DNA of 44,262 bases from Thermoanaerobaculaceae bacterium (GTDB taxonomy: Bacteria; Acidobacteriota; Thermoanaerobaculia; Thermoanaerobaculales; Thermoanaerobaculaceae). Under the pieces are notes generated by a model. That model did not search any database, was not told the origin of the DNA, and saw nothing but the letters and a program-made list of their open reading frames with translations. Within the stretch, counting starts at the first letter, position 1. The number at the start of each line of letters is the position of its first letter. Of this stretch, positions 2,172-34,434 are shown piece by piece. The translations under genes and the position numbers were made by a program. The stretch lies in NCBI GenBank assembly GCA_025456225.1, contig JALOLB010000004.1:1-44262 (forward strand), in the 5' to 3' direction.

Positions 2172-2266
2172 GGCTACAGCTTGCCCAGGCGGATCTCCTG
2201 GACCGAGTGGACGCTGCGGTCGATGAAGAAGTCGTTGCGCACCACGAGGCGGAACGGGCCGCGGTC
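2172..2266 (-). pseudogene. Relic of the 3' end of a second copy of the 14868-15935 gene
   Basis: These 95 bases match 14866-14960 with only four mismatches and keep the reading frame. They encode RGPFRLVVRNDFFIDRSVHS followed by VQEIRLGKL and a stop. The intact parent ends in the same sequence with LGTL. No upstream part of the parent gene is present: similarity stops abruptly at 2266, where the stop codon of the thioredoxin-like/BACON gene lies. The fragment has no start of its own. The high nucleotide identity implies a recent duplication or recombination. Confidence 0.85.
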
Positions 2267-3299
2267 ACCTCGGGGCCGGCGAGGCCGGAGCGCGCTGCAG
2301 GTGCCGTCGAGCGCGCATGACCTGCCCCTGGGTCGTGACGGTGACCGTCGTCGAGCACGACATGCCGCTGCCGGTGGCGTCGATGCGCACGGTGCCGTGC
2401 TGCCCGGCGGCCGGGGTGCCGACAAGCGACACCACACAGGTCGCAGGCATCGCGCCGGAGGCTGGCACAATCTGCAGCCAGGTCACCTCGGGCGTGGCCG
2501 TCCAGCTCAGCACGTCGGGCCCGTCGATGGAGATCTCGGCGGAGGGGGTCGACGGGCCGAGCACAATCCCTGACGGGGTGACATCGAGTACGGCCGGCGA
2601 GGCGATCGCCGCCTGGAGCATGTCGTAGGCGCCGCCGCCGGTCGGCCGGTGCTCGATCAGGGCGAGAGCTCGCAGGTGCTGCCAGTCCACGTTCGAGAGT
2701 GAGGCGACGTCGATTGTGGCGGAGGTCGTGTCGCCAGGCTGGAGTGGGCCCGCAAGTGGACGGGTGGCGGTGGCGCGTACCCACGTCTGGGTCAGCCCGA
2801 TCGGGTTGTCCTCCCAGACGATCACCCAGAACGCGGCGGCCTGGTCCGGTGTGAGGGGCGCATCGGACAGATTGGTGGCGCGCACGTACACCTGCAGGCC
2901 GTCACCGACGCGGCGGCTCCACACCCTGACCGATGCGGCGGGTGGCCGGGCCAGCTCGGCGTTGAGCATCGCCTTGTAGCGGTTGTAGTAGTCGACCGGC
3001 CCCTGGGAGACGTCGAGCCCGCTCCCGACCATGACGAGCGGCAGGTAGACCGAGGACGGCCCGTGATAGGCGGCCCACCAGCGGTCGACGCGGCCCGAGC
3101 TGAAGCTGTCGTAGGCGTACTCGAGCAGCACCGCCCGGCCGGCCATCTCGGCCTGGAGAGTGCTGACGGACGGTGCCGCCAACCGACAGTAGGTACCGCC
3201 GCCGCGCACGAAGAGCTCGAACACCCCCAGCCTGTCCTCGGCTCCCGCCCCGCTTGCCAGCAGCAGCAGGATCAGAGCACGCCTCACGGTTGGTACCAT
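2265..3299 (-). CDS. Exported thioredoxin-like protein with BACON-type domain; active site GTYC
   Basis: A 344-residue protein. ATG at 3299 gives a clear signal peptide (VRRALILLLLASGAGA). Residues about 22-125 resemble a thioredoxin-like domain (VFELFVRGGGTYC ... LLEYAY ... VMVGSG). A beta-rich middle follows, then a BACON-like domain with the VTWLQIVPASG signature near 260-330. It is a paralogue of the product of 19838-21514. Alignment of VFELFVRGGGTYC with VFEGFYHPG-Sec-GVC puts Gly (codon GGT) where the paralogue has selenocysteine, so only the resolving Cys remains. The last residues, RRHLQRAPASPAP, recur at the C-terminus of the leucine-rich-repeat protein at 32044-34113. It is the last gene of the long minus-strand run and its start overlaps the preceding gene by 16 bases. 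An envelope role is inferred from the signal peptide and neighbours. Confidence 0.7.
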   Translation of the reverse strand: MVPTVRRALILLLLASGAGAEDRLGVFELFVRGGGTYCRLAAPSVSTLQAEMAGRAVLLEYAYDSFSSGRVDRWWAAYHGPSSVYLPLVMVGSGLDVSQGPVDYYNRYKAMLNAELARPPAASVRVWSRRVGDGLQVYVRATNLSDAPLTPDQAAAFWVIVWEDNPIGLTQTWVRATATRPLAGPLQPGDTTSATIDVASLSNVDWQHLRALALIEHRPTGGGAYDMLQAAIASPAVLDVTPSGIVLGPSTPSAEISIDGPDVLSWTATPEVTWLQIVPASGAMPATCVVSLVGTPAAGQHGTVRIDATGSGMSCSTTVTVTTQGQVMRARRHLQRAPASPAPR

Positions 3300-4138
3300 T
3301 GTCGCCCTCCAAGCCGGTCCATCTCTTCCTCCACGGCGTCCACCAGCTCGCCGAGCTCCAGGTCCCCGACCCACCGGCGGCCGTTGATGAACAAGGTCGG
3401 CGTTTCCTCGACGCCGTTGGCGATGCCCTCTTTCTTGCTCGCGACCAGCTTCTCGCGGGTGGCCGGGTCAGCCGCGCGCGCCGCGAAGGTGTCTCCATCA
3501 AGGCCGACGGCGACCGCCCACTCACGCTGCCTGCTCGGTGCAAACTCGTCGAAATGCCGGTAGGAGTGAAGCAGGAACTCCCAGAACCGCCCCAGCTCGG
3601 CGGCGGCGGTGAACGCAAGGCCGGCCTCGGTTGAGCCCTCGTGGCCGCGAATCGGGAAGCATCGGAACGCCAGCCGCACTCGTCCCTCCAGGCGACCGGC
3701 GCGCACCTCCTGCACCAGGGCGCGGACCAGCTTGCTGCAGTACGGGCCGCGCGCGCAGGCATAGACGACGAGGGTGACCGGGGCGTTCTCGTGACCGACG
3801 GAGGTGGCCGGGTCGATGGCGATGACAGCGGGTGCACCGCCTCCAACCATGCTGCGCGCCCGGCGGGAAAGCGAGCGGCCAATGCGGGCCTCGTCCTGCC
3901 CGGCTGCCACTCGCCGGCAGATGCTCTCGGCCAACCTCACCGCGAGCGCACAGGTTGGACGGGCGGCAAGGCAGCGATCGAGGGTGTCGTCGCAACAGTC
4001 GTAGGGGTGCTCGGTGTGGAGCAGGCGCAACGCCAGCTCGTGCTTGGGTCCCGTGAAGGCATCGCAGGTGGGGGTCTGCGACCAGACTGGGGCCGCGAGG
4101 GTCGCGGCCAGCACCAGGGCGAGCTTCAGCTCACGCAC
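3284..4138 (-). CDS. Exported DsbA/thioredoxin_4-like protein with GPYC active site
   Basis: A 284-residue protein with an N-terminal signal peptide (LALVLAATLAAPVWSQ). A Cys-rich region of about 80 residues, TPTCDAF ... CCDDTLDRC ... CALAVRLAESIC, precedes a DsbA-like domain (VTLVVYACARGPYCSKLV, RCFPIRGHEGS, TEAGLAF, GVEETPTLFINGRRWVGD). The cis-Pro loop (ETPTLF) is intact, but the CxxC site reads G-P-Y-C, with GGC where TGC is expected. A nearby Cys lies three residues earlier (CARGPYC). The GTG start at 4138 is preceded by GAGGAG and overlaps the upstream gene by 8 bases. A role in periplasmic thiol chemistry is likely from the family. Loss of the first Cys suggests altered activity, unless the upstream Cys substitutes. 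Confidence 0.8.
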   Translation of the reverse strand: MRELKLALVLAATLAAPVWSQTPTCDAFTGPKHELALRLLHTEHPYDCCDDTLDRCLAARPTCALAVRLAESICRRVAAGQDEARIGRSLSRRARSMVGGGAPAVIAIDPATSVGHENAPVTLVVYACARGPYCSKLVRALVQEVRAGRLEGRVRLAFRCFPIRGHEGSTEAGLAFTAAAELGRFWEFLLHSYRHFDEFAPSRQREWAVAVGLDGDTFAARAADPATREKLVASKKEGIANGVEETPTLFINGRRWVGDLELGELVDAVEEEMDRLGGRQWYQP

Positions 4139-4604
4139 GTTGACGTCTCCTCTCCAGCCACCGGTCGATGCCAACTTGCCCCCGGTCTCCGACCAGTACC
4201 AGCATGCTCAGCGCCAACCACCCCAGATCTCGCATCACGGTGAGCCAGGAGATGGGGTCCTCGCCGGCGCCCTGGGACGCGAAGCATCCGCACGACATGT
4301 CGAGGCCGCGCCCGAGCGCGATCGCCAGGGCGCCAATGAACACCAGCATCATTCCGGCCACGAGCAGCGCTGCGGCTCGGGTCCTGACACCGGCCAGGAG
4401 CATGAGGCCGGCCGCGACCTCGATCCACGGCAGGGTGATGGCCGTGAGGTTGACGAGACTGAGCGGCAGGATGTCGTAGGTCGCGACGTCGACGGCGAAC
4501 GCGTGCGGGACGGCGATCTTGTGCCATGCCGCGCCGACGAACAGCACACCCAGGTACCAGCGCGCAGGCACCGCAAGCCAGGCGGAGACCCTGGCCGCGG
4601 TCAT
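4131..4604 (-). CDS. MauE/DoxX-family membrane protein with SCGCF motif
   Basis: A 157-residue integral membrane protein with four predicted membrane helices (about 10-28, 48-70, 75-98 and 122-140). WYLGVLFVGAAWHKI and LPWIEVAAGLMLLAGVRTRAAAL are typical of DoxX/MauE proteins. The motif MSCGCF near residues 103-108, on the loop between helices 3 and 4, is the Cys-containing site of MauE-type proteins thought to act with periplasmic thiol-disulfide enzymes. The start overlaps the end of the rhodanese-like gene by 4 bases (ATGA), and its own end overlaps the DsbA-like gene, so the set is translationally coupled. It probably passes electrons or supports maturation of the neighbouring exported redox proteins; this is inference from family and context. 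Confidence 0.8.
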   Translation of the reverse strand: MTAARVSAWLAVPARWYLGVLFVGAAWHKIAVPHAFAVDVATYDILPLSLVNLTAITLPWIEVAAGLMLLAGVRTRAAALLVAGMMLVFIGALAIALGRGLDMSCGCFASQGAGEDPISWLTVMRDLGWLALSMLVLVGDRGQVGIDRWLERRRQRA

Positions 4605-15986: not shown

Positions 15987-18056
15987 CTACAGCCTGGCCG
16001 ACAGGCCCACCGACACGGTGCGGCCAGGAGCCGGGAAGCCGTAGTCGGTCTCGTAGTCGAGGTCGCCGATGTTGCGGATCGAGGTCCAGAGCTCGAGGCT
16101 CTTGACGAGGTCGATTCCGAACCGGGCGTTGGTCAGGACGTAGCTGTCCACCTTCTTGGTGGGGTCGGTGGGGTACTTCGCCGACGGCAGGGAGGTGAAG
16201 ACCTCGTCCATGTACGTGCCGTCGAGGTCGAGGCGCGACGAGAACCAGGGCAGCCTCCACTGGATCCCGACGCCGGCCTTGTGCCTGGGGACGTTCAGGA
16301 CCTTGTTGGTGACGTGCCCCTCGCTGAGGTCCCCGGCGTCGTTGAGGGTGAAGTCGCCGCGCAGGGTGAGCGACTGGCTGGCGAGGAGGATCGCCCCCAG
16401 CTCGATGCCGCGCATGCGGATCTCGCCGTAGTTCTGGTAGAGGTTGGTGGGGTCGCCGCTGTTGCGGCTGATGAGGTCCTTCGTGTCGTACCAGAACCCG
16501 GAGAGCTCCACCCGCAGGGTGTCGGCCACCAGGGTGTTGTACCCGACGAGGAAGTTGGTGCTCTGCTCGGGCTCGAGATCGACGTTGCCACCCTTGCTGG
16601 AGTAGAGGTGCTGCAGCAGCGGGAAGCGGCTCTTCTGCGCCACGGATGCGAAGAGACGGCTCTGGGCGGACAGGATGTAGGTGAGCCCTGCCATGGGGTT
16701 CACGAAGCTGTCGGATGGCCTGGGCAGCGGGTCCTGGCGCACGAGGTTGCCGCTCGTGTCGAGGACGTTGCGCTCCGCGTCGGAGACGTCGAACCAGTCG
16801 TAGCTCACGCCGAGGACGGCCTGCACGCGCTCGGAGAGCTTCCACTCGTCCTCGAGGCCCACGGAGCCGGTGTAGGACTGGGTCTCGGCGAAGGGGAGGT
16901 AGGTGTCGTCCCGCTCCTGATGGTTGTCGGTCTTGTAGTTGAGCGACAGCCGCGCGGTGTTTCGGGCGCCGAGAGGCGACTCGAGCAGGACCGTACCACC
17001 CCCCAGGAAGTCCTTGAAGGTGCTGCGCGCCATCTTCTGGGTGTAGGTCTCGTCGCGGTAGGAGTCGTAGTTGTCCTTGTGATCGTGGTAGAAGAGCTTG
17101 CCCTTCATCACGAGCTGCCTGGACAGTCGCTGGCGGAGGTCGACGTCGGCGCCGCGGTCGCGATAGTCCGGCATGCGGGCGAACTGGGAGAACTGGGGCG
17201 TGCTGAGGAACACCTGGACCTGGTCGGTGGCGGGCGGCATGCCCTTGGTCATGTCCAGGTAGTGGAGGTTGACCCAGTAGGCGGAGTCGGCGCTCGCCTC
17301 GTAGCCCACCTTGAACCACGCGTCGTCCTTGTCGACGTCGGAGTTGACGCGGCGGCCCTTGCCCTGCAGCACCGCCTTGGTGGTGCTGCTCGGGCTCTTC
17401 GTGACGATCGTGCCCTCGTAGGGCTCGTAGTCGCCCGAGACGTCCCAGCCGTCCGACTCCATGTGGGTGTAGCTCAACCAGTAGTTGATCTTGCCGACCT
17501 TCTGGCCGTGCGTCACCACGTACTGCCGGAGGCCGTTGTCGCCGGCCTCAATCGTGCCGCCGTAGTGAGGCGTGTCGCCGGCCTTCTTGGTGATGATGTT
17601 GACGACGCCGCCCATGGCGTTGGCGCCGTAGAGGACCGAGGCGGTCGCCTTGGTCACGTCGATGCGGGCGATGTTGTCGGTGGGGATCTGGTTGAGGTCG
17701 AGCTTGCCGTAGTTGGTCTCGTAGTACGGCACGCCGTCGATGAGGACCAGGATCTTCGACTGGTCGAACCCGTGGATCGACACGTTGGGCTCGTTCTTGC
17801 GGCCGGTCGAGACGCGGATGCCGGGTGTCGTCGCGAGCGCTTCCGCCACGGTGCGGGCGTTCTGGGCCTCGATGTCCTCGGCGGTGACCGTCGTGATCAG
17901 CGTGACCTCGGCCTGCGGCGCATCGGCGGTCACCGTGATCTCCGCCATGGAGTAGAGCTCGAACTCCGGCGGGACCGTGGGCTGGGCCTGCTGCGCCAGG
18001 GCGGTGCCAAGGCCGAGCAGGGTCAGGGTGGTGACTGTCAGAATACGGGGGATCAT
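15987..18056 (-). CDS. TonB-dependent outer-membrane receptor
   Basis: A 689-residue protein: signal peptide 1-21 (LTLLGLGTALAQ), TonB-box-like EITVTA (39-44), plug domain about 50-158 (TAEDIEAQNARTVAEALATTPGIRVS, KILVLIDGVPYYE, VLYGANAMGGVVNIITKK), then a 22-strand-type barrel ending GRTVSVGLSARL. The plug is BtuB/CirA-like, but the ligand cannot be read from sequence. Linkage to a molybdopterin-like protein and, divergently, to a tungstate-binding protein suggests Mo or W oxyanion or chelate uptake; cobalamin or iron remain possible. ATG at 18056 is preceded by a TTG two codons upstream (18062) that is better spaced from AAAGGAGG. Confidence 0.92.
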   Translation of the reverse strand: MIPRILTVTTLTLLGLGTALAQQAQPTVPPEFELYSMAEITVTADAPQAEVTLITTVTAEDIEAQNARTVAEALATTPGIRVSTGRKNEPNVSIHGFDQSKILVLIDGVPYYETNYGKLDLNQIPTDNIARIDVTKATASVLYGANAMGGVVNIITKKAGDTPHYGGTIEAGDNGLRQYVVTHGQKVGKINYWLSYTHMESDGWDVSGDYEPYEGTIVTKSPSSTTKAVLQGKGRRVNSDVDKDDAWFKVGYEASADSAYWVNLHYLDMTKGMPPATDQVQVFLSTPQFSQFARMPDYRDRGADVDLRQRLSRQLVMKGKLFYHDHKDNYDSYRDETYTQKMARSTFKDFLGGGTVLLESPLGARNTARLSLNYKTDNHQERDDTYLPFAETQSYTGSVGLEDEWKLSERVQAVLGVSYDWFDVSDAERNVLDTSGNLVRQDPLPRPSDSFVNPMAGLTYILSAQSRLFASVAQKSRFPLLQHLYSSKGGNVDLEPEQSTNFLVGYNTLVADTLRVELSGFWYDTKDLISRNSGDPTNLYQNYGEIRMRGIELGAILLASQSLTLRGDFTLNDAGDLSEGHVTNKVLNVPRHKAGVGIQWRLPWFSSRLDLDGTYMDEVFTSLPSAKYPTDPTKKVDSYVLTNARFGIDLVKSLELWTSIRNIGDLDYETDYGFPAPGRTVSVGLSARL

Positions 18057-18069
18057 GCTCAAGGGGGCC

Positions 18070-18322: not shown

Positions 18323-18553
18323 ATGAAAGTGATCTCCCTGCACGTGGACGAGGGTGTCTACCGTGGCCTGCAAGGTCGAGCGGCCCGCCTGGGGCGACCC
18401 GTGGCCGACCTGATCCGGGACGCCATGGAGAGCTATGTTCGCCAGGAGGCCGGGTCCGGGTCGTCGGTGCTCGATCTTCTGCCCCACGACTCCGGGAAGC
18501 TGCTGCGCACGTGGTTGCGAACCGAGCTGCAGGACGAGATGAGGTCCTTGTGA
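18323..18553 (+). CDS. Ribbon-helix-helix antitoxin (CopG/VapB-like)
   Basis: A 76-residue protein. MKVISLHVDEGVYRGLQGRA forms the beta strand and first helix of a ribbon-helix-helix fold, and GRPVADLIRDAMESYVRQE the second helix. The C-terminal half (SSVLDLLPHDSGKLLRTWL) should wrap the toxin. It overlaps the PIN gene by 4 bases (GTGA), the usual antitoxin-first order. Confidence 0.82.
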   Translation: MKVISLHVDEGVYRGLQGRAARLGRPVADLIRDAMESYVRQEAGSGSSVLDLLPHDSGKLLRTWLRTELQDEMRSL

Positions 18554-18984
18554 CGCTCGCTCTGGATACAGACGTCCTGGTCAACTGGCTCATGGACGGA
18601 GCACCTTCACATGCTGCCAGCTCGAGGCTGGTGCGGAGGGAGGTGGAGGAGCTGGGAGGAACTCTTGGCCTGGTTCCTCAAGTGATTCACGAGTTTCTCC
18701 ATGTTTGTACCGACCCCCGGCGGTTCGAGAGGCCGATGCCGATGAAGCGCGCGCTCGAGCTGGTAGGCGATCTGTGGGCCGCGCCGGAAGTGGTGCGGAT
18801 CGTGCCCGGGCCCGAGATGCTGCCACGCACGCTGGAGCTGATGCGCAATCTTCGCCTCGGGCGCAAGCGGATCCTCGACACCGCGCTCGCCGCCACAATC
18901 GAGATCGCGGGCGTGCGCCGCCTGGCGACCCTCAATCCTAGGGACTACAAGCTCTTCCCTTTCATCGAAACCGTCGTGCCATGA
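18550..18984 (+). CDS. PIN-domain ribonuclease toxin (VapC-like)
   Basis: A 144-residue protein. The acidic residues expected of a PIN nuclease are present: D6 and D8 in LALDTDVLVNWL, Glu in VIHEFLHVC, and Asp in RILDTALAATIEIAGVRRLATLNPRDYKLF. It probably cleaves RNA when free of its antitoxin. The GTG start overlaps the antitoxin gene, and its own stop overlaps the tupA-like start (ATGA). That coupling is unusual, since toxin-antitoxin pairs normally form separate units. Confidence 0.85.
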   Translation: MTLALDTDVLVNWLMDGAPSHAASSRLVRREVEELGGTLGLVPQVIHEFLHVCTDPRRFERPMPMKRALELVGDLWAAPEVVRIVPGPEMLPRTLELMRNLRLGRKRILDTALAATIEIAGVRRLATLNPRDYKLFPFIETVVP

Positions 18985-19820
18985 AGCGCCGACCTGGTGT
19001 CACAGCCCCGATTGTCTTGAGCCTGCTCGGGCTGACGAGGGCCACAATGGCGGCGGAGCCGGTCACCGTGATCCTGGCCACGACGACCTCGACCCAGGAC
19101 ACGGGCCTGCTGGATGCGCTCGTGCCGGCGTTCGAGAAAGCGCACCCCGAGATCAGGGTCAAGGCGATTGCCGTGGGCACCGGCGAGGCCCTGGCCATGG
19201 GCCGGCGGGGCGATGCCGACGTGCTCGTCGTGCACGCCCGGGCAGCCGAGGACGCGTTCATGGCCGAGAGCCACGGGCTGCTGCGCTACAATTTGATGCA
19301 CAACGACTTCGTACTGGCCGGGCCGCCGTCCGACCCGGCGGGCGTGAGGGGCAGGGGGATCCTGGACGCGCTGAAGGAGATTGCTGTGGCCCGTGCAACC
19401 TTCGTCACCCGGGGCGACGGGTCCGGCACCCACACGAGGGAGCTGGCGCTGTGGAAGCAGGCCGGCGTCGGCGTGCCGACCGGGAGCTGGTACCTCGAGG
19501 CGGGGCAGGGGATGGGCGCCACGGCCCGCATCGCCTCGGAGAAGCAGGCGTACACCCTGATGGACCGGGGGAGCTTCCTGGCGTTGCAGGCGACGCTCGC
19601 CCTCACGGTGGTATCGGAAGGCGGCGAGGAGCTGCTTAACCGGTACGGGGTCATCGTGGTGAGCCCCAGGACGCACCCGGGCGTCCGGGCAGCTCAGGGC
19701 AGGACGCTGGCCGACTGGCTCGTCTCGGCGGAAGGCCAGAAGCTGATCGGCGAGTTCGGGGTGACGCGTTTCGGCAGGGCGCTCTTCGTGCCCGACGCCC
19801 CTCATGCTGGCGCCAGGTAG
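18981..19820 (+). CDS. tupA: Tungstate/molybdate-binding periplasmic protein (TupA-like)
   Basis: A 279-residue protein with a signal peptide to about 25 (LSLLGLTRATMAAE). TupA signatures are present: VILATTTSTQDTGLLDALVPAFEK, VGTGEALAMGRRGDADVLVVH, FVTRGDGSGTHTRELALW and KQAYTLMDRGSFLAL. The STQDTG and RGDGSGTH loops form the oxyanion site in the family. No permease (TupB) or ATPase (TupC) gene follows; instead the next gene encodes the thioredoxin-like selenoprotein candidate, 17 bases on. The partner transporter must be elsewhere, or the protein acts in binding or sensing. Specificity for W over Mo is from family only. Confidence 0.88.
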   Translation: MKRRPGVTAPIVLSLLGLTRATMAAEPVTVILATTTSTQDTGLLDALVPAFEKAHPEIRVKAIAVGTGEALAMGRRGDADVLVVHARAAEDAFMAESHGLLRYNLMHNDFVLAGPPSDPAGVRGRGILDALKEIAVARATFVTRGDGSGTHTRELALWKQAGVGVPTGSWYLEAGQGMGATARIASEKQAYTLMDRGSFLALQATLALTVVSEGGEELLNRYGVIVVSPRTHPGVRAAQGRTLADWLVSAEGQKLIGEFGVTRFGRALFVPDAPHAGAR

Positions 19821-19837
19821 CGAGTAGGATTCTCCCG

Positions 19838-21514
19838 ATGATCCGCACGCTCGTTCGGGCTCTGGTCTGGCTGCTGGCGGCAGCGGTCGGCTCCCTCGGA
19901 TGGGCTCTCGGCGCCCAGCCGCGGGTGACGGTCTTCGAGGGGTTCTATCACCCCGGCTGAGGGGTGTGCGTGGCCGCCGGGTCGGTGGTCAAGCGACTTG
20001 CGAGCGAGTACGCGGGACGGCCGGTCGTGTTTCTCGAGTACTTCGCCAACGCGTCGGTCGGCGACCGGCAGTCGCGCTTCGACGCGGCGTGGGGGCCGAA
20101 CGGGTACGCCGTGCCGATGGTCATGCTTTCGAGCGGGCACAGCGTGACCCAGGGGACCCAGGACTTCTACACGAAGTACAAGGCGATGATCGAGGCAGAG
20201 CTGCCGCGCCCGGCGGTCGTCGAGCTGGAGGCGTGGCAGCAGCAGGTCGGCACCGTGATGCGGGTGTGGGCGAGCCTCCGCAACACCGCCGCCTTCCACC
20301 TGGACGCGGGCAACCAGGCCACGGTCTGGGCGATCATGTGGGACCAGGGCACCACCGGGGTGACCGGGATGTACGTGCGCGCCGCGAAGAAGGTCGCCGT
20401 GTCACCGGGCATTCCCCCGGGAGGACAGGCCGGCTTCACCTTCGACCTGGCGATGCCGACGGGGATCGATCCCTCGAAGCTGCGGACCATCGCGCTGGCC
20501 GAGTACCGGCCGGCCGGCGCCAGCGGGCCGTTCGACATGCTCCAGGCGGTGCGACCCCTGTCCCCGAGCCTGACACTGTCCCCTTCGTCGCTGCAGCTCT
20601 CGCTACCTCAGGGAACCGGGATGGCCGAGGTGCGGCTGGCGGGTCCTCCCGGGCTCGAGTGGTCGGCCGTGTCGCACGTCCCGTGGCTCGAGGTCACCCC
20701 GTCCCAGGGGCCGCTCGCAACTCCGGCGAGGGTCCGCGTCCTGCTCGCGCCCCTGCAGGAAGGAGCGCAGCAGGGCAGCATCACATTCACGGCCACCTCG
20801 CCCGACGGGCTGAGCCTGGCCGCCGAGCTGCCGGTGACGGTCACCCTCGACGACAGCGCGACGGTCCGGGAGCTCCCCGGGGTCGCCAGCCTGGCCGGGC
20901 AGAACCAGACCGCCTGGCGCTCGTCGCTCACGCTCCACAACCCTGTGGCCGAGGCACGACCCGTGCTTCTGGAGATCAGCGCCCGGGACACAGGCGCCGT
21001 CGTTGCGTCCCGCCAGCTCGATCTGACGGCCGGTGAGGTGCGGGAGCTCGCGGACCTGTACGCCGAGCTCGGGGCTCCATCGGGAGCGGGATGCCTGCGG
21101 GTCACCGGCGACGTGCTGGTCTGGGTGCGGACCTTCAACCTGGGCGAGGCCGGCACCTTCGGGCAGGACGTCGTGAGCAGCAGGGAAGGGGAGATCGGGG
21201 CGGGCGAGGAGATGCTCTTCCCGATCTCCACGGCCAGGAACACGGCCTCCGGCTTCCGTTCGAACCTGTTGCTGCTCAACCGGGAGTCGGTCCCCATCAC
21301 GGTGCACCTGACGGTGGGCGCCGTCAGCCTGGATGTCCCGGTGCCGGCCCGGACCTATGTCCAGCTCACCAACGTCGGCCACGAGCTCGGGCTCCCGGCC
21401 GGCACATCCGTCCTCCGGGTCCGCGCCGACGGCCGGTGGTGCGGATCGGTCTCCACCGTGGACCCGACGACCGGCGACCCCACGACGGTGCGCGGCCAGC
21501 GCCCACCCGAGTAG
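19838..21514 (+). CDS. Exported thioredoxin-like protein with in-frame UGA (candidate selenoprotein, Sec41, UxxC) and BACON domain
   Basis: A frame of 558 residues if TGA at 19958-19960 is read as selenocysteine. ATG at 19838 follows AGGA by eight bases and encodes a signal peptide (LVRALVWLLAAAVGSLGWA). The TGA is codon 41 in VFEGFYHPG-TGA-GVC, giving U41-G-V-C44 at the position of a thioredoxin CxxC. Downstream the same frame continues in good coding sequence: thioredoxin-like to about 140 (VVFLEYFANAS, VMLSSG), a BACON-type domain near 265-325 (VPWLEVTPSQG), then two beta domains like those of the convergent gene 21519-22340. A SECIS-like hairpin begins 10 bases after the TGA. The alternative, initiation at GTG 19964, would drop the signal peptide and active site. 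The paralogue at 2265-3299 has Gly at this position. Confidence 0.8.
19958..19991 (+). promoter_or_regulatory. Recoding UGA and bacterial SECIS-like hairpin
   Basis: After UGA (19958-19960) come 10 bases, then UGGCCGCCG (19971-19979), loop GGU (19980-19982), and CGGUGGUCA (19983-19991). This is a nine-bp stem with two G-U pairs and no mismatch. The apical loop starts 19 bases after the UGA and begins with GG, as bacterial SECIS elements require. The GGUC at the tip matches the loop of the E. coli fdhF element, where the upper stem also starts about 11 bases after UGA. Confidence 0.75.
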
Positions 21515-27456: not shown

Positions 27457-28866
27457 TCACCAGGTCTGGCCGAGCTGCCGGAGCTTCTCCTGAGCCGCCT
27501 GGTGCCCTCCCCTCGCGGCGCGCCGGAAGTGCTCGATCGCCGTTGCCTCATCCCGGGGCACGCCAAGGCCCTCCTGGTACATCCTCCCGAGGTTCCACTC
27601 GGCCCAGGGGTAGCCCTGCGCCGCCGACTGCCGGAACCAGGCCAGTGCCTGCTCAAGATCCCGGCTGACCCCCCACCCGTTCTCGTACATGGTGCCCAGG
27701 TTGTTTTGACCGTTGGCGTCCCCGAGTCTGGCCGCCCGTTCGTAGTACTTGAAGGCCTTGGCCAAGTCCTTCTGGACGCCCAGACCGTACTGGTGCATCC
27801 AGCCGAGCCGGTCGAGGGCGTCAGACCTGTCCTGCGCCGCGGCGAGCAGGCAGAGCCTGAGCGCCTCGGCCTCGTCCTTCTCGACCCCGAGGCCCTCGAG
27901 AAGGAGGCCACAGAGGTTGGAGCATGCCTGCGGCTCCCCCTGCGCCACTGCCTTCCGGTACCACACGGCCCCGGCCTGCGGGTCCTTCGCCAGGCCGCCC
28001 CGGCCCGTGGTGAGAAAGGCGCCGTAGGCGTTCTGCGCCTTCGGGCGCCCCGCCTCGGCAGCCTGCCGGAACAGTGCCGCCGCACGGGCATCGTCCCGCG
28101 GCACGCCCCGGCCTTCCATGAAGGCGAAGCCCGCCTGCTCGGCCGCCTCGGCGTGGCCCGCCGCTGCGGCCTGCAGGAAGAGCTCGACGGCCCGGGCCGG
28201 GTCCTTGCCGCGGAGTCCTGAAGCCTGCTGGAAGATCGCGTCCGCGCGCGACCCGGTCGCCCACACCGTCGCCTTCATGACCGAGGTCGGCGTGGCGAGG
28301 ACCTCGACCGGTGCGGCGTCCACGAGCCCATCGGCGCGCACCGCCGTGACCCGCCAGGTGCCGACGACGATCGTGTCCTCGCCGACGGCGAAGGAGAGCT
28401 CGACCCTGTCGCCGACCGCGGCGACGGCAGCATCACCCAGGACTCGGAGCGTGATGTCCTGGCCGCGCACCGAGGTCACAGCTCCAGGCACGCCCGAGCT
28501 GGGGCTGCCCGGGACAGGTACGTCCGGTCCCGGGCGGAGCTCGTCGCCATGGGGAGGGCCAATTGTCGCCACCATCCCGACCCGCGGCGCTTCCCCGATG
28601 CCCCCCTTTCGCACGGCTCGCACCGAGGTCCCCTGCACGTCGGTCACGGTCCAGTGCCCGATCGCCACCGCATTGCCACCCGCGTCGAGGGGCCTCGACA
28701 CCGACACCCTGTCGCCAACTGCGGGGGTGGGCCCGGAGCGGACAGAGACCACGATCGTGTCCCCGTCCACCCAGCTCACCTCGCCCCGGGTCTGGGCGGA
28801 GAGCCCGAGGGCCGGACCGACAAGGACCAGTGCGACGATCAGACCGATGCGGAAGCGGGTGGGCAT
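27457..28866 (-). CDS. Exported Sel1-repeat protein
   Basis: A 469-residue protein. Signal peptide (LIVALVLVGPALGLSAQ), an N-terminal half of two or three small beta domains (GEVSWVDGDTIVVSVRSGPTPAVGDRVSVSR; GAVTSVRGQDITLRVLGDAAVAAVGDRVEL), and about seven Sel1 repeats from residue 215 (AAAAGHAEAAEQAGFAFMEGRGVPRDDARA, AARLGDANGQNNLGTMYENGWGVSRDLEQA). Sel1 repeats bind other proteins. ATG at 28866 has GAGGAGGAGG upstream. The next gene upstream ends 14 bases away, so the two are likely co-transcribed. Confidence 0.85.
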   Translation of the reverse strand: MPTRFRIGLIVALVLVGPALGLSAQTRGEVSWVDGDTIVVSVRSGPTPAVGDRVSVSRPLDAGGNAVAIGHWTVTDVQGTSVRAVRKGGIGEAPRVGMVATIGPPHGDELRPGPDVPVPGSPSSGVPGAVTSVRGQDITLRVLGDAAVAAVGDRVELSFAVGEDTIVVGTWRVTAVRADGLVDAAPVEVLATPTSVMKATVWATGSRADAIFQQASGLRGKDPARAVELFLQAAAAGHAEAAEQAGFAFMEGRGVPRDDARAAALFRQAAEAGRPKAQNAYGAFLTTGRGGLAKDPQAGAVWYRKAVAQGEPQACSNLCGLLLEGLGVEKDEAEALRLCLLAAAQDRSDALDRLGWMHQYGLGVQKDLAKAFKYYERAARLGDANGQNNLGTMYENGWGVSRDLEQALAWFRQSAAQGYPWAEWNLGRMYQEGLGVPRDEATAIEHFRRAARGGHQAAQEKLRQLGQTW

Positions 28867-28880
28867 CGCCGTCCTCCTCC

Positions 28881-30629
28881 TCACTTGCGACAGAGCGTCC
28901 CCTCGTAGGCGTGGACAGGAGTCACCACCCTTGTGCCTGTGTAGCAGCCGGACGAGGGATCCTGTGGGCCGGTCTGGATGGCGGTGACCGGGTACACGTT
29001 GTTGGCCACGTTGATCCACGTGCCGCCCGCGCCGTCCCGGCAGACGATGGCGCCGAGGCCGCTGTACGGCGGCGGGTTCCACAGGTCGAAGACGACGGTG
29101 ACGGCCGGCCCGGGGCAGGCGGGCGGGGCGGGTGGCGGCGTCGCTGTGGGGATGGGCGTCGGGACCTGGAAGACCGGTGCCGGCGTGGGGGGCAGGTCCG
29201 GCGTCCCGCGGCCCGGGCACGGCTCGGCGTACGGCTCCACCTGCCGCATGAGCTCTTCCGCGAACCTCATGGCGAGGTCGAAGTGCAGCCCGTTGAACGC
29301 CTGGGCACTCACGGCGGCGCGGCGACTCCAGATGTACCGCGTTCCGAGGAGGCTCGTCGAGTCCTGCGGCCAGCAGTAGCCCGCCGGTGATCCTCGTCCT
29401 CTCGTCAGGAAGGACACGCTCAGGAACTTGCTCCTGAGGGCTCCGAGCTCGTACCAGCACCCGAAGTGCTGGTAGGGGCTGTCCGGATTGGTCTCGCTCC
29501 AGCCGCTCAGGGCCGGGAGAAGGGGAATCCTCGTGCCTGGTGGCAACGCGTCCCGCTGCTGCGACAGCGGCACCTCGGCCGGACACCGGAGATCCGGCCG
29601 CCCGGTCGGCTGCGCGTCGTCCGCGGTCCCGATCCGCACGTCCTGCTGGGGCGGCAGGACGAACGGGCTGTGCACCGTCAGGCGGACGGTCGTCCCGGCA
29701 GCGACCCTCGTGCCGGCGGCGACGGACTGCGACTCCACCGTCCCGGTCGCAGAGGGAACGAGCGCCGGCGATCCCGGGGCAAGCTGTGTGGTGAGCCCGA
29801 CCTCGGTCAGGCGGCGCTTGGCGTCCGAAAGCAGGAGGCCCTCGAGGTGTGGCACCGTGACGAGGTGACCGGACGGGTGGTGAGGTCCGGCGCTGCGGCA
29901 CACCTCGAGGACCCTCGGGAGCAGCTCGACGTAGGTCGCGTGCGGCTCGTCGAAGCGCAGCATGGGCACGATGGACCACGCCTGCTCGGTGTTGAAGGTG
30001 CAGTGCTCGAGTGGGGTCGGGCCGGTGCCGTCGAGGGCGAGGCGCAGGCCCGCCTGGATCGCCTGAAACGCCGCGCCGTTGGCGCCGTTCTGCTTGGATC
30101 TCGCTTGGTGCTCCTCGATGAGCCCGGGGTCGAACCGGACCGCCGCGTACGTCCCGGCGAGCCCGAGGTGCCAGCTCGCGTCGAGCATGCGCGAGTCGCA
30201 GGTGGGGTTCCAGTGGAAGGCGTCGGAGCGCGAGGTGGCGTAGGAGTACGACAGAGCGTTGCGGTAGTGCGTGTAGAACCCCTGGATCATGCTCATTCGC
30301 GCCGCGGGCGAACGGCCTTCGGCGAGGCGCGCATAGGCGGCGAGCTTGCCCTGGAGCTCGGCAATCGACCGCTGGCGGTCGGGGGTACTGAAAAACGGCT
30401 GCTGCACGCCGGCCTCGGCGGCGGCGATGTGGGCCGCTGCGTTGGCGAGGTTGGCTGCGACGTCCGCCGACTGGTCGGGTCCGATCTCGCCGTTGAAGTA
30501 CTCGGTCCGAGCGTAGGCCGCACCCAGGTTCTGACCGGCGGCGCAGATGTGGAACTGGACCTCGTTGGCGAGCGCCGCGGTGCAGGAGATGATCGCCCCA
30601 AGAGCCACGGAATGGGCACCCAACCGCAT
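28881..30629 (-). CDS. Exported Cys-containing protein with PASTA domain and Pro-rich linker
   Basis: A 582-residue protein with a signal peptide (ALGAIISCTAALANE). The N-terminal helical domain of about 220 residues (FHICAAGQNLGAAYARTEYF...) is unrecognised. A PASTA-type domain follows at about 265-335 (VTVPHLEGLLLSDAKRRLTEVGL...VESQSVAAGTRVAAGTTVRLTV), then a globular region. A Pro/Thr linker (TPAPVFQVPTPIPTATPPPAPP) leads to a small C-terminal domain with three Cys. PASTA domains usually bind muropeptides, here presumably in the periplasm or at the surface. ATG at 30629 follows GGGGAGG. Confidence 0.75.
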   Translation of the reverse strand: MRLGAHSVALGAIISCTAALANEVQFHICAAGQNLGAAYARTEYFNGEIGPDQSADVAANLANAAAHIAAAEAGVQQPFFSTPDRQRSIAELQGKLAAYARLAEGRSPAARMSMIQGFYTHYRNALSYSYATSRSDAFHWNPTCDSRMLDASWHLGLAGTYAAVRFDPGLIEEHQARSKQNGANGAAFQAIQAGLRLALDGTGPTPLEHCTFNTEQAWSIVPMLRFDEPHATYVELLPRVLEVCRSAGPHHPSGHLVTVPHLEGLLLSDAKRRLTEVGLTTQLAPGSPALVPSATGTVESQSVAAGTRVAAGTTVRLTVHSPFVLPPQQDVRIGTADDAQPTGRPDLRCPAEVPLSQQRDALPPGTRIPLLPALSGWSETNPDSPYQHFGCWYELGALRSKFLSVSFLTRGRGSPAGYCWPQDSTSLLGTRYIWSRRAAVSAQAFNGLHFDLAMRFAEELMRQVEPYAEPCPGRGTPDLPPTPAPVFQVPTPIPTATPPPAPPACPGPAVTVVFDLWNPPPYSGLGAIVCRDGAGGTWINVANNVYPVTAIQTGPQDPSSGCYTGTRVVTPVHAYEGTLCRK

Positions 30630-32043: not shown

Positions 32044-34113
32044 CTAGGGTGCCGGCGTTCCATTCGGCGAAGCACGCTGCAGGTGGCGTCGAATCCCGTG
32101 GCTGTTGTCGAACCTCGCTGTGACGGCCAGCTCAGTTGTCATCGAGACCGTACAGGTTCCGGAACCGGCGCAGGCGCCGAACCACCCAACAAAGCGCGAG
32201 CCTGGCGCGGCTTGCTGATTCAGCGTCACCGGCGTCCCGTGGTCGAACGACGCCGAGCAGGTCGCCCCGCAATCGATGCCGGCTGGGTTGGACGTGACAG
32301 TCCCCGTCCCGGTGCCGCTCTTCGCCACGACAAGGATCCTGGCCACCAAGGTGGAGAGCGAGACCTCGGAGCTTGGATCGCTCACTACGACGTTCTGGTT
32401 GTTGCCGTGGGGGTCGGTCACTGATCTCACGACCACGGTGTAGAGGGTCTCAGGGTTGAGCCCGGTCACGATCCAACCCGTGGCGGACTTGTCCGTGGTC
32501 ATGCCCAGGAGCGTGTAGGGGCCGCCCGAGGTCGTCGAGCAGTAGACCTGGTAACCGCCAGTGTCGCCTGTGTAGGAGATCGGCGTCCATGTCACGGCGA
32601 TCGAGGAGGCAGTCGCCTCTCCAGCAGCGAGGCCCGTGACTGGCACGGTCTGGGTACTCTGCCAGTCGCCACCGTTCTGCTTGTCATTGAGGAACGCCAC
32701 GATGGTCGGGTCTGAGCTGTGCAGCCCGTTCCAGCGGAAGTCGTTGTAGCCAGGGTTGAGGTTGGTCAAGCTGGTCATGCTACTCGGTACCGCGCCCGTG
32801 AGCTGGTTGGAAGACAGCCATAGCCCCACCAGGTTTGTGAGGTTGCCCAGCTCCGCTGGGATCGAGCCCTGAAGCTGGTTGTTGGACAGGTACAGCTCTT
32901 GCAGGCTTGTAAGGTAGCCCAGCGCGGGCGGGATCGCGCCCGTGAGCTGGTTCGACTCGATGTAGAGGCTACGGAGGGTCGTGAGATTGCCAAGTGACGC
33001 CGGGATCGGACCGGTGAGCTGGTTGGAGAGAAGCGAGAGCTTCGTCAGGTTCGGGAGGTTGCCAAGCTCTGCGGGGATCGTGCCTGTGAGCTGGTTGACA
33101 CCCAGAGAGAGGTATTCCAGGCTCGTGAGGTCGCCCAGCTCTCTGGGAATGGAGCCGGTGAGCTGGTTGCGACCCAGAGAGAGACTCTGCAGCCTCGAAA
33201 GGGCGCCCAACGCCGCAGGGATCGAGCCCGTGAGCTGGTTGGAGTCAAAGTAGAGGCCCAGCAGGCTCGTGAGGTTGCCCAGCGCCGCTGGGATCGAGCC
33301 CGTGAGCTGGTTGTAGGTCAAACGGAGATACTGCAGGCTTGTGAGGTTGCCAAGCGCGGCAGGGATCGAGCCCGCAACCTGGTTGTACATCAGGTTGAGG
33401 CTCTTCAGGTTCGTCAGATTGCCAAGCTCGGGCGGGATCGAGCCCGTGAGCTGATTCCTCAGCAAGTTGAGGGTCTGCAGGTTCGTGAGGTTGCCAAGTG
33501 TCGCTGGGATCGAGCCCGTGAGCTGGTTGGTGTCAAGGTAGAGGTGCTGCAGGCTGGTGAGGTTGCCAAGCTCTGCCGGCATCGAGCCCGTGAGCTGGTT
33601 CCCCTGGAGGACCAGGTACTGCAGGCTCGTGAGGTTGCCAAGCTCCGCTGGGATCGAGCCCGAGAGCTGGTTCGAGCTCAGCCAAAGCTCCTGCAGGCTC
33701 TTGAGGTTGCCCAGCTCCGGCGGGATCGGGCCGGTGAGCTGGTTGGCGTACAGGATGAGGCGCTGCGGGCTCGTGAAGCTGCCAAGCGACGAGGGGAGTG
33801 TCCCTGCGAGGTTGTTGTGATCGAGGATGAGCTGCTGGACCCTGTTCTGCTCGGCGTCGCAGATCACCCCGTACCACGTGCACTCGGTCCCAGGCGCACC
33901 GTTCCAGTTCGTTCTGTTCGTCCAGAAGGGACCATTTGTGCTGTCGTAGAGATCAAGGAGAGCCTGCCTCTCGCTCGCCAGGACGGAGTCGCCTGCCCGG
34001 GCGACGACCGGCTGCGCCGTGGAGGGCGCCACTCCCGTCACCAGCAGCGCCGCGACGGCCATGTGGATAGCAAAGTTCGGGACGCCAGGAGCCGTGACGA
34101 GCTTGGGAAACAC
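32044..34113 (-). CDS. Secreted leucine-rich-repeat protein (plant-type repeats) with Fn3-like and beta-repeat domains
   Basis: A 689-residue protein starting at GTG 34113 (TTGGAGGG six bases upstream), with signal peptide MAVAALLVTGVAPSTAQ. An N-terminal cap like plant LRR proteins (SERQALLDLYDSTNGPFWTNRTNW...C..YGVIC) precedes 15 regular 24-residue repeats of the form LxxLxLxxNQLTGSIPxxLGNL (DNA 32767-33846). A Fn3-like domain follows, then a small disulfide-bearing repeat (GTVTSNPAGIDCGATCSASFDHGTPVTL...GWFGACAGSGTCTVSM). It ends RRHLQRASPNGTPAP, a tail shared with the 2265-3299 product. A likely surface binding protein; the ligand is unknown. Confidence 0.88.
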   Translation of the reverse strand: MFPKLVTAPGVPNFAIHMAVAALLVTGVAPSTAQPVVARAGDSVLASERQALLDLYDSTNGPFWTNRTNWNGAPGTECTWYGVICDAEQNRVQQLILDHNNLAGTLPSSLGSFTSPQRLILYANQLTGPIPPELGNLKSLQELWLSSNQLSGSIPAELGNLTSLQYLVLQGNQLTGSMPAELGNLTSLQHLYLDTNQLTGSIPATLGNLTNLQTLNLLRNQLTGSIPPELGNLTNLKSLNLMYNQVAGSIPAALGNLTSLQYLRLTYNQLTGSIPAALGNLTSLLGLYFDSNQLTGSIPAALGALSRLQSLSLGRNQLTGSIPRELGDLTSLEYLSLGVNQLTGTIPAELGNLPNLTKLSLLSNQLTGPIPASLGNLTTLRSLYIESNQLTGAIPPALGYLTSLQELYLSNNQLQGSIPAELGNLTNLVGLWLSSNQLTGAVPSSMTSLTNLNPGYNDFRWNGLHSSDPTIVAFLNDKQNGGDWQSTQTVPVTGLAAGEATASSIAVTWTPISYTGDTGGYQVYCSTTSGGPYTLLGMTTDKSATGWIVTGLNPETLYTVVVRSVTDPHGNNQNVVVSDPSSEVSLSTLVARILVVAKSGTGTGTVTSNPAGIDCGATCSASFDHGTPVTLNQQAAPGSRFVGWFGACAGSGTCTVSMTTELAVTARFDNSHGIRRHLQRASPNGTPAP
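32767..33846 (-). repeat. 15 tandem 72-base LRR-coding repeats
   Basis: Fifteen in-register copies of a 24-codon unit within the LRR gene, nearly every one containing the codons for NQLTG and most reading SIP or PIP. The near-identical units imply recent expansion or gene conversion and could vary in number between strains. Confidence 0.88.
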
Positions 34114-34434
34114 CGAGTCCCTCCAAGGTCTTCGGTTGTCTGGACCACAAGAACCCCCGGTGCCGCGGTGCCCGAGGCGTACCATGCTTGCCTCGGCATT
34201 CTAGCCCCATCCCCAACTCACGAGCGACGGAGCGTCCCGGTGCAGTCGAGACCTGGGACGAAACAGCATCTGCATTGGCTGCGGCAAGGACCGGTGCGTC
34301 AAGTAGCTGTGCCGCCTCACCGTACCAGACACCATCACCAAGGAGGGACCCAAGGGTCGTCCGTATCGACCAGACGGCGGCCTTTCGACCGTGTCGAGCG
34401 CCGTTGCGAGAGGTCACGCGCGCTGGTTCTCCCG
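34114..34434. other. Spacer between LRR and alpha-2-macroglobulin-like genes
   Basis: About 320 bases with no supportable gene. A short plus-strand stretch encodes NSICIGCGKDRCVK followed by a stop (near 34263-34306), but it has no convincing start. The LRR promoter should lie here. Confidence 0.4.

Follow-up and report, generated by a model that had tools for sequence, protein, structure and literature searches.

The closest described system is the Omp28-related selenoprotein NF045500, that is, the hypothetical protein GOS_C with a Trx-like fold and a UxxC motif (Zhang and Gladyshev 2008, PMC2398784). Nothing corresponding to the family considered here is listed among the 119 prokaryotic selenoprotein families inventoried in 2026 (PMC13188914). 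The limits that this inventory gives for bacterial SECIS hairpins (bSECIS) are a loop of 3-9 nt, a stem of 4-16 bp and G in the first two loop positions (PMC13188914 Fig. 2), with the loop 16-37 nt after the UGA and an energy of at most -7.5 kcal/mol (PMC13188914).

We analysed a contig stretch of 44,262 nucleotides from a Thermoanaerobaculaceae bacterium (phylum Acidobacteriota), below called the window. With high confidence, one of its genes is predicted to encode an exported thioredoxin-fold oxidoreductase that carries selenocysteine (Sec) at the N-terminal residue of the active site (U41-G-V-C44), with the UGA codon decoded via SelB and a hairpin. The case is made by comparison: Sec/Cys replacement, a covarying SECIS element, coding sequence on both sides of the UGA, the Sec machinery, and the confident prediction of a thioredoxin-like fold. 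The gene very probably belongs to a selenoprotein family that occurs in two phyla and is missing from the published lists that were checked.

The gene occupies positions 19838..21514 on the plus strand, stop codon TAG included, and encodes 558 residues if TGA is read as Sec; all its parts given below are on the same strand. As the first-pass annotation of this DNA had stated, the frame runs from ATG 19838 to TAG 21514 with a sole internal stop, TGA 19958-19960. The ribosome site and signal peptide that it had described are also recognisable in the sequence: a likely ribosome-binding site AGGA (19826..19829) lies 8 nt upstream of the ATG, and the hydrophobic start forms a putative signal peptide (residues 1-24, 19838..19909), modelled as a hydrophobic helix at low confidence. 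The TGA (19958..19960) is assigned to Sec, residue 41 of the U-G-V-C motif, from the Sec/Cys pairing across homologues; TGC at 19967..19969 encodes the putative resolving Cys44 of the UxxC motif and is nearly invariant in the family. A thioredoxin-like domain (approximately residues 28-121, 19919..20200) is delimited by the AlphaFold2 model with pLDDT 95 and by a profile match to solved thioredoxins. It is followed by a conserved all-beta domain (approximately residues 125-240, 20210..20557), its constant companion, and by a BACON-like beta domain (approximately residues 245-340, 20570..20857) that is seen in the model. The BACON assignment itself, made in the first-pass annotation, is not upheld by the Pfam model PF19190, which scores 17.3 bits with a cut-off of 25. 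The C-terminal all-beta region (approximately residues 343-556, 20864..21505) was delimited by homologue search and by the model, and long proteins encoded in the same genomes contain this module in repeated copies. Scans for promoters and terminators gave no hit.

A six-frame search of 100 relatives flagged many homologues with exactly one TGA. The search of named genomes used a 9-row alignment as the query; a single-protein query found none. The genomes sampled, 396 and 400, are only a part of each phylum. In total, the family contains 21 Sec loci (15 in Acidobacteriota and six in Chloroflexota) and eight Cys loci, and the TGA falls in exactly the same column. The Acidobacteriota Sec loci are the window gene, L023-L026, L028-L030, L032, L035, L040-L042, L052 and L078, and Cys occupies the column in L022, L043, L051 and L102 of the same phylum. 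In Chloroflexota, Cys is found in L067, L069, L070 and L072, and Sec in L068, L074 and two adjacent pairs of genes, L128 with L148 and L129 with L149, all with TGA. The adjacent genes have different motifs, UWHC and UGYC in the first pair (G745:C47), UGVC and UTIC in the second (G583:C44). Thus the search for Sec or Cys aligned to the TGA, proposed in the first-pass annotation, returned both. The result that it had named as contrary to its claim, a random sense codon at this position, did not occur: the column contains TGA, Cys or, in one subfamily, Gly, and the RxxVFExF segment just upstream of it is conserved. A sequencing or assembly error turning a Cys codon (TGC or TGT) into TGA might be suspected in a genome fragmented into 450 contigs. 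It is extremely improbable, as the same TGA is present in independent assemblies of many genomes from two phyla. Among large ORFs around nine Sec loci, part of them assigned to families, no obvious arrangement of neighbours was seen beyond close relatives, and phage records contained no relative.

The Sec machinery, whose presence the first-pass annotation had named beforehand as a check, is complete in the genome of the window. SelA scores 468.7 bits, SelB 329 bits when its C-terminal part is included, SelD 353.6 bits and tRNA-Sec 70.7 bits. SelD has an in-frame TGA of its own, in the motif SCAGUASK, and ARAGORN reads the tRNA anticodon as TCA. SelB exceeds the cut-off in 14 of 17 genomes of the bacterial family to which the window belongs. 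It exceeds the curated cut-off in 16 of the 17 Sec-bearing genomes tested, a count that leaves out the genomes of L128/L148 and L129/L149; the exception is G012, which is 84% complete. Two genomes with Cys forms only (those of L069 and L072) have no SelB above the cut-off.

The in-frame UGA is flanked by coding sequence on both sides. Over the 14 codons upstream of it, with all pairs of Sec loci summed, substitutions at codon positions 1, 2 and 3 number 564, 550 and 1027. In L040 and L042, which come from a related order, the redox module is at the C-terminal rather than the N-terminal end of the protein, and an uninterrupted stretch of approximately 200 conserved codons leads up to the TGA, with substitutions mostly in third positions. 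These observations bear on the possibility that TGA 19958 is a true stop or a decay mutation, in which case any protein would be cytoplasmic and start at GTG 19964. Standard reading indeed yields an ORF of 516 aa from this GTG, the next start after the TGA, and it lacks the signal peptide, as had been pointed out in the first-pass annotation. Decay is also known in the family: in the locus L071 of Bacterium UASB270 the second Cys is missing after the TGA and an additional TAG closely precedes it, and the genome yields no SelB above the cut-off. For these reasons L071, which looks like decay, was rejected as a Sec locus and left out of the count. For the window gene a stop or decay is nevertheless very unlikely, given the recurrence of the TGA at this codon in 21 loci of two phyla, always next to the conserved VFE segment, the SelB of the Sec-bearing genomes, and the 200 codons preceding the TGA in L040 and L042 with their third-position substitutions.

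A predicted bacterial SECIS hairpin is located at 19971..19991. As had been described in the first-pass annotation, it has a stem of 9 bp (19971-19979/19983-19991) with the loop GGU (19980-19982) and begins 10 nt past the TGA; the loop is 19 nt past it. The hairpin is a part of the predicted minimum-energy fold (-19.8 kcal/mol for a 51-nt stretch) and satisfies all the bSECIS limits given above. Its energy is ordinary (z -0.78) and was discarded as evidence for Sec. Of the 870 TGAs in the window, nine (about 1%) are followed by a SECIS-like stem of 9 bp or more, and TGA 19958 is the only one of the nine with an open frame of at least 30 codons before it and at least 200 after it. Because the energy is ordinary and such stems follow about 1% of TGAs, the case for Sec rests on comparison.

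Comparison of the aligned loci lends support to the SECIS assignment, which is thus backed by covariation and not by folding energy. A 7-bp helix aligned over 18 Sec loci gives 126 cells, of which 93.7% are in standard pairs; for 15 homologues with Cys or Gly the share is 62.9%. A set of 22 Sec rows, obtained by dropping L071 and adding four Chloroflexota loci and the Omp28-like L104, has 92.9% of cells paired, with changes on both sides in five of the seven pairs. The covariation in this set is 0.324, and none of 500 shuffles, which ignore kinship, is as high; when the partner is slid by 1-3 columns, at most 61.7% of cells are paired. G is the second base of the loop in all Sec rows, compared with one of eight Cys rows. 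The loop glycine is encoded by GGU in 12 of 16 rows, while GGU accounts for 44 of 408 glycine codons (10.8%) in these genes; GGC, their commonest glycine codon, never occurs at this position in the 16 rows. The hairpin model scores 52 bits in the window gene, 37 in L051 (Cys-type) and 33 in L034 (Gly-type). The scores in the two non-Sec genes may reflect ancestry or protein constraint. Conservation of the hairpin is possibly driven in part by the protein, since it overlaps conserved codons (AAGPAV).

The open frame alone could also be explained by reading of UGA as some other amino acid, by a near-cognate Trp or Cys tRNA or after reassignment. This is hardly conceivable, since TGA also serves as a genuine stop codon, as in the Gly-type paralogue and several homologues, relatives have Cys in place of the TGA, the SECIS-like hairpins covary, and tRNA-Sec and SelB are present. 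Decoding of the UGA as Sec is the reading that we retain.

Sec and Cys forms belong to sister clades of the same two genomes. In the tree of the redox domain, the window gene pairs with L052, the Sec copy of a sister genome (support 100/98), and the Cys copies of these genomes, L022 and L051, pair with each other (100/100); the node that unites the two pairs is supported at 92/97. The closest full-length paralogue in the genome of the window (contig C346) has the motif CTVC and is 50% identical over 548 residues. Gly forms constitute one group (91/94), and the direction of the changes is not given by the tree. This group includes the paralogue at 2265..3299 on the minus strand, assigned to the Gly-type (GTYC) subfamily by alignment and by the tree. 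The first-pass annotation had taken this paralogue as the match to the active site. However, its GTYC aligns to UGVC with Gly, not a redox residue, in the TGA column; it was therefore ruled out as evidence on the active site, and the Cys paralogue with CTVC takes its place.

The Gly subfamily is found beside DsbA-like genes. In the window, the Gly-type paralogue directly follows a DsbA-like gene (3284-4174, minus strand), and the ends of DsbA-like genes are located upstream of the Gly-type homologue L034 and, probably, of L033 and L053. A thioredoxin-like protein without the nucleophile next to an active one may be its partner or chaperone. Taken as a whole, the data point to a likely unlisted family of exported selenoproteins shared by Acidobacteriota and Chloroflexota. 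Close paralogues in it would differ in having Sec, Cys or Gly at one active-site position, and large surface-type beta proteins would carry the redox module at either end.

The AlphaFold2 model built with 32 homologues has pLDDT 95 for residues 28-252, and the order of strands and helices in its first part is thioredoxin-like. Sec, residue 14 of the domain, is at the start of helix 1 in the model, and the invariant Pro66 is just ahead of a strand, like the cis-Pro loop of thioredoxins. The predicted beta-alpha-beta fold, in which helix 1 begins with the nucleophile, is that of the thioredoxin superfamily. Accordingly, the half of the domain with the active site matches profiles of solved thioredoxins (best E 4.9e-5). 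The full-length model (pLDDT 86) contains only beta domains behind the thioredoxin-like domain. A fold search against PDB, dominated by these beta domains, returned mostly immunoglobulin-like beta domains with TM-scores of at most 0.34 by query length.

Because of the thioredoxin-like model, the profile match and two DsbD/CcdA-type proteins encoded in the same genome, the most likely function is that of an exported UxxC thiol-disulfide oxidoreductase. We infer its export, redox direction, partner and substrate; it may act as a reductase, an isomerase or an oxidase. Firstly, SelB and Sec-tRNA, aided by the hairpin 19971-19991, would decode UGA 19958. Secondly, the exported protein would act outside the cytoplasm, where the selenolate of Sec41 could attack a disulfide or another electrophile and Cys44 could resolve the mixed selenide-sulfide. 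The beta domains behind the redox domain might place or tether the protein. Finally, a membrane reductant of the DsbD/CcdA type could recharge it.

Several other features were observed in the window. A gene encoding a TupA-like tungstate-binding protein (18981-19820, plus strand) ends 17 nt ahead of the selenoprotein start. A candidate molybdenum/tungsten cofactor riboswitch RF01055 (18053-18196, minus strand; 36.1 bits, just at the gathering score) is located directly upstream of a TonB-dependent receptor gene (15987-18057, minus strand) and not far from the TupA-like gene. This suggests a Mo/W uptake island whose outer-membrane receptor is under riboswitch control. The region 18323-18984 (plus strand) contains a short upstream ORF followed by a gene for a PIN-domain protein and resembles a VapBC toxin-antitoxin pair. 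On the minus strand, the gene at 27457-29979 encodes a protein with Sel1 repeats, and that at 32044-34185 a long protein with leucine-rich repeats as well as fibronectin III and InlB-type repeats; both are unusual, large repeat proteins in the window.

The family adds a well-supported group of selenoproteins to lineages with little-described selenoproteomes. Standard annotation would cut such genes at or after the TGA, losing the signal peptide and the active site. Since Sec, Cys and Gly versions share one genome, the effect of replacing Sec by Cys can be compared in natural paralogues. If the proposed function is correct, these common soil and sediment bacteria would use selenium-based redox chemistry outside the cytoplasm.

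The first-pass annotation could not name the family. Indeed, the redox domain of the window protein matches no model of Pfam or NCBIfam, and the family is not in the list of 119; it does, however, have distant kin among Omp28-related proteins. As profile comparison links it to these proteins, including a known UxxC selenoprotein, it is not unrelated to all known families. Alignment of the family profile with that of Omp28-like proteins of the same phylum by hhalign gave 98.8% probability and E 1.3e-16 over 173 columns at approximately 15% identity, which indicates that the two are distant relatives of common ancestry. No paper was found in the literature on the family in Thermoanaerobaculia; an earlier mention in a paper on selenoprotein neighbourhoods or a groundwater MAG study is possible.

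Four Omp28-like proteins are intermediate: L130 and L150 (G466:C170), L104 (G021) and L110 (G220). They are exported, have an in-frame TGA in UxxC-type motifs (UGYC, USGC, ULSC and UPNC), and score below the NF045500 cut-off. They are probably further unannotated selenoproteins of the Omp28-like group. Together with the shared UxxC motif, the thioredoxin-like fold and the hhalign match, these intermediates would fit a reading of the window family as merely a divergent member of the known Omp28-related family (GOS_C, NF045500). We consider that unlikely. At E 0.001 the NF045500 model finds nothing in the genome of the window or in the Sec-bearing genomes G006 and G020, and against 24 family members its best E is 0.1, reached by two of them, the cut-off being 200 bits; the identity between profiles is as low as stated above. 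Since NF045500 is not matched and yet the Omp28-like profile link and the Sec-bearing intermediates exist, we regard the family, as judged by the NF045500 model, as new and as a sister of an already known kind of UxxC selenoprotein. With it, the group of Omp28-like UxxC selenoproteins would come to include a far broader range of exported proteins.

Similarity to other known systems is more limited. The Omp28 family outer membrane lipoprotein NF033782 and DUF1223 (PF06764) match the thioredoxin-like half weakly, with best E of 0.013 and 6e-4, but every member is below the cut-offs, and neither family has a selenoprotein label in the libraries searched. Thioredoxin (PF00085), its Sec form included, likewise has UxxC where helix 1 begins and matches over the active-site half (E 4.9e-5), whereas the window family is presumably exported, has an obligate all-beta domain behind the redox domain, and its tested members are below the Pfam cut-off. 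The DsbA-like, DsbG-like, TlpA-like and SaoT UxxC selenoproteins (PMC13188914) presumably also perform extracytoplasmic thiol-disulfide exchange, but they have another architecture and show no significant family match. With NF045500/GOS_C the family shares the thioredoxin-like fold with UxxC, known Cys homologues and an exported Omp28-like context. In contrast, NF045500 is a model of 377 positions with a different C-terminal part, and the window family has its own signature, RxVxFExF...UxxC...YLPLVMVDSG, together with its beta domains and BACON-like or repeat modules.
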